Below, piece by piece: positions 11,153 through 18,003 of a stretch of 64,000 nt of DNA (its first letter is position 1; each line of letters starts with the position of its first letter). Origin of the DNA: an uncultured Clostridia bacterium. GTDB taxonomy: Bacteria > Bacillota > Clostridia > Lachnospirales > CAG-274. The notes below the pieces were generated by a model. It had not been told where the DNA came from. It did no database searches and worked only from the letters and a program-made list of their open reading frames with translations. Position numbers and translations under genes: made by a program. The stretch spans positions 62,001-126,000 of the forward strand of contig CALWSP010000001.1 of NCBI GenBank assembly GCA_944384235.1, in the 5' to 3' direction.

Positions 11153-11499
11153 GGGGATGCAATGGTTTCGACGGGGATTTTGAAATCTGAGATAGCCATT
11201 GGAGGCGGGAGACTCCTTAAAAGCCCAAAGTTTTAAAAAATAAACGACAAAAATTTAGAATTAGTGGCAGCTTAATTGCTGCTCATTGACCTTAGATTTT
11301 CTGCAGTCTAAGAATCAGTGCCGACCTTGCAGAGCACTTTTGTTGTGAAGCTTTGAGCAACAAAAAGATTTATGAAGCTACCAAGATTTATAGCCTGTCT
11401 TTCGGCGATATTTCAAGGGAATTAACAAAAGATAGACTGTAATGGGAGAAGTCTTTGACGACGGATTTTCGGACAGGGGTTCGATTCCCCTCATCTCCA
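11153..11499 (+). ncRNA. ssrA: Transfer-messenger RNA (tmRNA)
   Basis: Rescues stalled ribosomes with SmpB. The 5' end GGGGATG pairs with CATCTCC at the 3' end to make the tRNA-like acceptor stem, and the T-arm GGACAGGGGTTCGATTCCCC is present. The tag reading frame (11243-11275) gives NDKNLELVAA followed by TAA. The ATA just before it may be the resume codon. The Val-Ala-Ala end resembles the usual LAA-type degradation signal. The 3' CCA is not encoded, so it must be added by tRNA nucleotidyltransferase. Confidence 0.95.
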
Positions 11500-11524
11500 T
11501 TAAAATGGAAAACATTTATTAAAA

Positions 11525-16564: not shown

Positions 16565-17185
16565 ATGATTAAAAAGAAATTTGTTTTAGTTTTTACTATA
16601 TTTTACATTACATTTAGTTTATTTATTTTATTTTTTGCAAACTACATTAAATTTGACAACATTATTGAATCTTGCAAAAGGCAGGAAAAAGATGTTTTAG
16701 AAAGAGTTATAAAGAGTTTATATAATGCTGACGATGAAAAATTTGAGGATATTAATTATTTAAACAATTTATTAAAAAGCGAAACATATTTTATTTTTTT
16801 ATATAAAGAGAACATAGTGTTATATGAAAAAAATTTACAAAATTCAAAAAAGTACAAAGGTGCCACAATTAGGGAGTTATACAACGATTATACTAAAAAT
16901 AGTGGTGTTGACATTGTTGATGATATGTTGGAAATGTTAGAAAGCGAGGAGGGAATTGAGTATATGACAAAGATGCCGTCTATTGGAGATGAAATTATTG
17001 CTTGGAAAAACATTGAGATAGATGGATATAGATATACAGTTGGAGTAGAATGCCCTATTAGGGATATACTTTTGGAAACAAAGTATTATCTTTTTAGGAA
17101 TATAAGTTTTTTTACAAATATCTGTTCTGATATTTTAATATTAATTTTTTGTTTTAGTTATTACAAAAGGGCTACAAAAGAGTAG
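16565..17185 (+). CDS. Two-pass membrane protein with extracytoplasmic domain, function unknown
   Basis: I do not recognise a family. The 206 residues have one N-terminal membrane segment (about 7-27) and a mixed helical/beta external region (about 30-170). A second hydrophobic segment (about 180-200) precedes a very short cytoplasmic end, YYKRATKE. The layout matches the Cache/PAS-like sensor part of a receptor, but no HAMP, kinase or cyclase follows before the TAG. It may be a stand-alone sensor or a truncated receptor. A perfect terminator directly follows the stop codon. Confidence 0.6.
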   Translation: MIKKKFVLVFTIFYITFSLFILFFANYIKFDNIIESCKRQEKDVLERVIKSLYNADDEKFEDINYLNNLLKSETYFIFLYKENIVLYEKNLQNSKKYKGATIRELYNDYTKNSGVDIVDDMLEMLESEEGIEYMTKMPSIGDEIIAWKNIEIDGYRYTVGVECPIRDILLETKYYLFRNISFFTNICSDILILIFCFSYYKRATKE

Positions 17186-17203: not shown

Positions 17204-17352
17204 AGTGGCCGCCTAAAAGGCGACCACTAAGTAAGGGAAATTAAATTTTTAGCTTCAATATATTTGAAGTTAAAACACCGAAGTCACAAAAGAGGAGTAT
17301 AAAAAGACTTCGGCCTTTGGTTGAGGAAAGAATTAGGGGCAAAACCTCAACC
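17204..17352 (-). ncRNA. Candidate structured small RNA with four hairpins
   Basis: A gene-free segment carries four consecutive perfect or near-perfect stems. On the minus strand, 5' to 3', they are GGTTGAGG/CCTCAACC (17352-17319), CCGAAGTC/GACTTCGG (17313-17278), an AACTTCAA/TTGAAGCT stem (17271-17251) and AGTGG-CGCC/GGCG-CCACT (17228-17204, followed by TTTT). TATAAT at 17365-17360 places a start on the first G of the first stem, and the last stem has terminator form, so the minus strand is preferred. Loops and linkers are C-rich (GCCCCTAATTCTTTCC, ACTCCTCTTTT, TTTCCCTTAC), the style of sRNAs that pair with ribosome sites. No -35 is clear and no known family is recognised. Confidence 0.6.
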
Positions 17353-17483
17353 TATATTTATTATAAGATATAATTCTTAACAAATTATTTAGGAAAAATT
17401 AAAATTTAATTAGATTATTGAAATTTTTTAGTTTTTTGAAATATTTGAGGATAAATTTTAGTAAAGTAATAAAATAAATGTGC

Positions 17484-17512: not shown

Positions 17513-17592
17513 TAATAAAATAATATATATTTTGTGCGAATGTTAGAAGTTTAGGCACAAAAAATAAAAGGACAAAATTTGAAGGTGATATG

Positions 17593-18003
17593 ATGACTAG
17601 AAGAAATGCAAGAAAACACATTTTTAATTTAGTGTTTCAATCAGAATTTAACAAGGATTTAGGTATAAAAGATGTTTTAGATACTTATAATGATGAGTAT
17701 GAACAGCTTAACAAGTATGAAACTGACTTTGTTTCTAGAGAATACAGAGGTATTTCAGCTAATTTAGAGGCTATTGACTCTTATATTGAAAAATATTCTA
17801 GAGGCTGGAGTGTGGCTAGACTTGCTAAAACTGATTTAGCTATTTTAAGAATTGGTGTTTATGAAATTATGTTTGATGACGATGTTCCAGCTGGTGTTGC
17901 TGTTAATGAAGCTGTTGAGCTTGCTAAGGAATTTAGTGGGGACAAAGCACCATCTTTTATTAATGCTATTTTGACTAATATTGTAAGAGCTAAGGAAGAT
18001 TAA
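17593..18003 (+). CDS. nusB: Transcription antitermination factor NusB
   Basis: An RNA-binding, all-helical protein that works with NusE/S10 in rRNA antitermination. The 136 residues carry the patterns RRNARKHIFNLVFQSEF, LAKTDLAILRIGVYE and GVAVNEAVELAKEF. ATG at 17590 is also possible, but the AAGGTGAT site spaces better to 17593. It heads the nusB-xseA-xseB-ispA-dxs operon. Confidence 0.96.
   Translation: MTRRNARKHIFNLVFQSEFNKDLGIKDVLDTYNDEYEQLNKYETDFVSREYRGISANLEAIDSYIEKYSRGWSVARLAKTDLAILRIGVYEIMFDDDVPAGVAVNEAVELAKEFSGDKAPSFINAILTNIVRAKED

Follow-up and report, generated by a model that had tools for sequence, protein, structure and literature searches.

A structured small RNA with fixed C-rich hairpin loops, predicted in two genera of uncultured gut Clostridia

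Results

Locus and fold of the predicted sRNA

The window, a 64,000-nucleotide stretch of DNA from an uncultured Clostridia bacterium, holds a predicted small RNA (sRNA) gene of about 150 nt on the minus strand (17204-17353), recognized from its fold, a terminator scan and its homologues. On its 3' side lies a convergent ORF of 206 aa (16565-17185, plus strand), which has an N-terminal hydrophobic (membrane) segment and gave no Pfam match. The divergent nusB gene (17590-18003, plus strand; PF01029, E 5e-35) lies on the 5' side. The window's genome has a single copy of the sRNA. A tmRNA gene is also present in the window (11153-11502, plus strand; Rfam RF00023, 168.7 bits).

The start of the RNA was inferred to lie 6-7 bases past a TATAAT -10 box (17360-17365, minus strand), which was identified from the sequence and from upstream alignments, and the terminator sets the 3' end. 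The initial annotation had put this box seven bases ahead of the first stem, and it was found there, reading 17365-17360. No good -35 element was found to accompany it. The upstream alignment also marked a TTGTTAA half-site at 17377-17383 (minus strand).

Two hairpins form the core of the minus-strand RNA (17277-17352), which was delimited by covariance models and covariation. In hairpin 1 (17319-17352), the strands GGTTGAGG (17352-17345) and CCTCAACC (17326-17319) pair over 8 bp without mismatch and enclose an 18-base loop, UUUUGCCCCUAAUUCUUU (17344-17327). Hairpin 2 (17277-17314) pairs GCCGAAGTC (17314-17306) with GACTTCGGT (17285-17277) over 9 bp, one of them G-U, around a 20-base loop, UUUUUAUACUCCUCUUUUGU (17305-17286). 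Hairpin 3 (17253-17269, minus strand; CTTCAA/TTGAAG), seen in the fold, is small, with 6 bp that can be extended only with a mismatch. The last element, found by the terminator scan, is an intrinsic terminator (stem 4; 17204-17228, minus strand) whose 11 pairs close a 3-base loop, followed by TTTT. The C-rich segments GCCCC, CTCCTC and TTTCCC were located in loop 1, in loop 2 and in the linker preceding the terminator, respectively, all unpaired as first described. The fold energy was -51.1 kcal/mol, and none of 200 dinucleotide shuffles (-27.3 +/- 3.3) reached it (z -7.3). The four stems of 8-9 bp described at the outset were borne out for stems 1 and 2 and fell short at stem 3, and the claimed terminator was recovered, at 17228-17204, with a U-tract that is short. 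Four tandem hairpins as the conserved anatomy had to be given up, since the homologues keep stems 1 and 2 only.

Homologues and distribution

Homologues were found in five other species of the window's genus and in four species of a sister genus, giving ten carriers with the window's copy included. Of the six genus mates, five have a copy, as do four of the five genomes from the sister genus. One of the genus mates is Candidatus Gallispira edinburgensis, and the isolate names of several further carriers suggest Clostridia MAGs from the rabbit gut. Two genomes, G006 and G061, lack both the sRNA and engB; because this neighbouring gene is missing there too, the absence of the sRNA probably reflects an unassembled locus. 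No further credible copy was detected when 392 genomes from the order and 391 from the class were searched, a permissive search of 33 non-carriers in the bacterial family gave weak scores only, and phage or viral contigs showed no match. Two candidates, G296/L048 (29.6 bits) and a pattern hit on a planctomycete contig (L052), looked like chance when read. As shown by these sequence searches, the family has a narrow distribution, with copies in a pair of related genera among the gut Clostridia.

All carriers share hairpins 1 and 2, and hairpin 3 is not conserved in the relatives. The positions of promoter and terminator are kept: the -10 box reads TATAAT, TATTAT, TATCAT or TATACT at an unchanged distance from stem 1, and the relatives' copies also end in terminators, but of unrelated sequence. 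The engB/ysxC gene adjoins the sRNA in nearly all carriers, mostly in divergent orientation (L049, L050, L051, L054-L058). In the window's genome, engB lies on another contig (G000:C21), away from the sRNA. An ORF similar to 16565-17185 adjoins the sRNA in two genus members (L050 and L058).

Covariation and fixed loops

Homologous loci without compensatory changes had been named beforehand as evidence against the RNA. When the comparison was run, both-side compensatory changes appeared in 11 of the 17 stem pairs and 98.8% of the stem cells in the ten sequences were paired, in an alignment that was fitted by a structure model from six of the ten and is biased towards structure. None of 500 shuffles reached the observed level, and slid partners paired in less than 50%. 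The raw hairpins of the remaining four sequences can be read by eye, with GGCTATGG...CCATAGCC as against GGTTGAGG...CCTCAACC. Compensatory changes fell on seven of the eight pairs of hairpin 1 and on four of the nine of hairpin 2. The stem cells included 14 G-U and no A-C combinations; therefore the RNA is the minus strand, as the initial annotation had predicted, and the opposite strand is ruled out.

Both stems have been rewritten among the ten carriers, while the loop cores UUUGCCCCUA and ACUCCUCUUUUGUG stayed fixed, the former, that of loop 1, being invariant. Between the genera, loop 2 had an identity of 0.94 and loop 1 one of 0.76, as compared with 0.48 in stem 1, 0.57 in stem 2 and 0.29 in the linker. 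Each loop is fixed from end to end, and this extends to U-rich flanks, for instance the CUUUUGU on either side of loop 2. Structure, strand and fixed loops of the sRNA are all directly evident from this comparison. Stems that drift with compensation around loops that do not are characteristic of loops in contact with some partner. The locus also has the general attributes of an sRNA gene: its own promoter and terminator, a conserved structure and no coding function, the reading frame being stopped in six of the ten sequences. The comparative analysis confirmed the structure on the minus strand of 17204-17365, a predicted and previously uncatalogued small RNA that we take to be real.

Comparison with known RNA families

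No Rfam family matched the sRNA at its gathering score, in agreement with the original view of a candidate new RNA that did not match RNase P, SRP, 6S or tmRNA, and permissive thresholds gave no relative. The likeness to RsaE/RoxS suggested at the outset held for the style of working and failed for the family. The RF01820 model found nothing in the window, with E allowed up to 10, nor in any of 61 relatives, and the control match in B. subtilis was obtained. RoxS of the Bacillaceae and Staphylococcaceae is likewise a stand-alone Firmicute sRNA with its own terminator and several unpaired C-rich regions. In RoxS these regions number four and are able to base-pair with G-rich sites in mRNAs, and RoxS is repressed by Rex, whose site lies just downstream of its start (PMC5419742). 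In the present RNA, GCCCC, CUCCUC and UUUCCC could pair with such sites, and two of them lie in loops that are fixed in ten genomes. A Rex site is predicted from sequence for the sister-genus copies alone, and there it lies upstream of the -35 instead; the loop motifs also differ, being GCCCCUA and ACUCCUCUUUUGU. We read the sRNA as a base-pairing RNA that would work like RoxS without being RoxS.

The enterococcal EF3314_EF3315 RNA (RF02634) shares the order of two hairpins followed by a terminator. The loops of its model measure about four bases and none is C-rich, and in the alignment the fixed loops of our sRNA become insertions. The only notable score, 39.1 bits in L009 (E 9e-8; gathering score 100), was obtained with the stems alone aligned and the conserved loops skipped, and the window scored 12.5 and 10.8 bits; we rejected this family as a relative. 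The actinobacterial 6C RNA (RF01066) has two hairpins with C-rich loops, but none of the thresholds applied yielded a match to it. SQ1002 of Clostridioides difficile (RF03533), RsaH and RsaOG are also terminated sRNAs of low-GC Firmicutes. They gave weak alignments of 20-25 bits (best E 0.015), far below gathering scores of 50-128, and the homologues had no match to them at E up to 1. An earlier description of the sRNA was not found in the open-access literature. We regard the sRNA as a new family within a type already known; the case is solid for a structured RNA and moderate for a base-pairing regulator, and the redox link is of interest though indirect.

A Rex-type box ahead of the sister-genus copies

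In all four sister-genus copies, a Rex-type box, TTGTTAAN4TTRTCAA, lies five bases ahead of the -35 of a promoter with the form TTGATT (or TTGCTA)-17-TATAAT/TATACT. The box is an 18-base block conserved amid otherwise diverged upstream sequence, within the intergenic region that the sRNA has in common with the divergent engB. G026 and G032, each about 2 Mb in size, have a single match to the pattern TTGWTAAN4TTAWCAA apiece, which in either genome lies ahead of the sRNA, and the reversed control of this pattern occurs in neither. Variant boxes with TTGTCAA occupy the same place in G011 and G019. No full box precedes the window's copy or those of its genus mates, the best site in the window having three mismatches.

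The window's genome has only two exact boxes, 25-30 bases before ldh and a gldA-like Fe-alcohol dehydrogenase gene, and a third with one mismatch precedes a second Fe-alcohol dehydrogenase gene. The three sites (L060:2075-2092, L153:8701-8718 and L063:1358-1375, respectively) lie 25-33 bases before these genes. Lactate dehydrogenase and Fe-alcohol dehydrogenases are textbook Rex targets, and for the window's organism the three genes are predicted to form a small Rex regulon. Each of the 17 genomes searched had a rex gene (PF06971), and a clostridial Rex consensus, TTGTTAANNNNTTAACAA, has been published (PMC5367854). Because of the dehydrogenase-linked boxes, the rex gene in every genome and this consensus, the sister-genus block is most likely a Rex operator. 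On this sequence evidence, the sister-genus sRNA appears to be wired to the redox sensor Rex.

Elsewhere in the genus, G001-G006 each have one exact TTGTTAAN4TTATCAA box, located away from the sRNA (e.g. G001:C44:320 and G004:C63:2942). A lactate dehydrogenase query found no ldh orthologue in the genus mates.

Target prediction

Pairing of the loops was predicted at 1618 starts in the window's own genome, with shuffled loops as controls. For loop 1, the pairing energies at start codons were no better than those of shuffled loops. Loop 2 gave 57 strong pairings as against 28.7 +/- 13.1 for the shuffles, more than most of them, a marginal excess of the kind that CUCCUC, as a generic anti-Shine-Dalgarno sequence, gives anyway. 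Pairing at the ribosome sites of central-metabolism mRNAs, as would be expected of a RsaE/RoxS-type RNA, was likewise not predicted beyond the shuffled-loop controls. There was also no clear excess of pairing among 572 orthologue pairs, a comparison that covered about half of the second genome (G032). The folE and queC genes, which are adjacent in both genomes (L093:179, 756; L179:6320, 5742), ranked second for loop 2 and loop 1, respectively; such high ranks among 572 pairs may be due to chance.

Discussion

On balance, we favour a stand-alone, trans-acting base-pairing sRNA, whose sister-genus copy would in addition be switched by Rex. Transcribed from its own minus-strand promoter, the RNA would consist of two hairpins presenting GCCCCUA and ACUCCUCUUUUGU, followed by a terminator. 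The stems would serve as scaffolds that hold the C-rich loops single-stranded, and the loops would be kept for pairing with G-rich mRNA stretches at or near Shine-Dalgarno sites. Such pairing could block translation or alter mRNA stability. We propose mRNA pairing because the long C-rich loops, rigid stems, own promoter and terminator, and lack of coding capacity correspond to the Firmicute sRNA design. In the sister genus, the Rex-type operator would probably switch the sRNA with the NAD+/NADH ratio, as for RoxS in Bacillus and Staphylococcus. More tentatively, an sRNA unrelated to RoxS may have come under Rex independently in this lineage of gut anaerobes, its C-rich loops retuning fermentation mRNAs as NADH builds up, which would be a case of convergence on a redox-sensing RNA branch of the Rex regulon.

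The main rival is that the loops bind a protein, either an RNA chaperone or a regulator that is titrated, and that mRNA pairing is secondary or absent. Conservation of the loops over their whole length, U-rich flanks included, would fit a protein-binding site, as would the lack of any target list that beats its controls. However, the locus shows no link to a partner protein, and C-rich loops able to pair with Shine-Dalgarno sites are common among the base-pairing sRNAs of Firmicutes. We regard a protein-binding role in place of mRNA pairing as unlikely.

The Rex link of the preferred reading could also be apparent only, if the sister-genus box served the divergent engB and not the sRNA. The box lies in their common intergenic region, about 60 bases ahead of the engB start, and one of the genomes has a -35-like element on both sides of it, each at the same distance of 5 bases. 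Against this, engB encodes a ribosome-assembly GTPase and is not a usual Rex target, and in four genomes that possess engB but not the sRNA, the Rex-type boxes are located at other places. An operator for engB without any redox link to the sRNA is thus doubtful in our judgement.

That the locus is a small protein gene and not an RNA is very improbable. An ATG/GTG frame is open through both hairpins and loops in the sister genus (L014, L015, L017 and L018), but in all six genus members, the window included, loop 1 carries a UAA stop (UGC CCC UAA). The changes track base pairing and not codons, G-U pairs have been retained, and the loops hardly vary. Chance clustering of hairpins, or an array of terminators, as might be imagined between a convergent and a divergent gene where the last hairpin is a terminator, has a negligible probability and is already refuted by covariation, since ten genomes from two genera share the loops and show compensation in the stems.

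To our knowledge, hardly any sRNA has been described in these gut Clostridia, and we found no such description for these uncultured organisms in the open-access literature. The base-pairing sRNA favoured here adds a well-supported RNA family to uncultured gut Clostridia, one in which freely changing stems contrast unusually sharply with frozen loops. Should the Rex link be right, redox-controlled C-rich sRNAs would have arisen more than once, and the sister genus would offer a ready operator-sRNA pair for learning how anaerobes couple NADH to translation.
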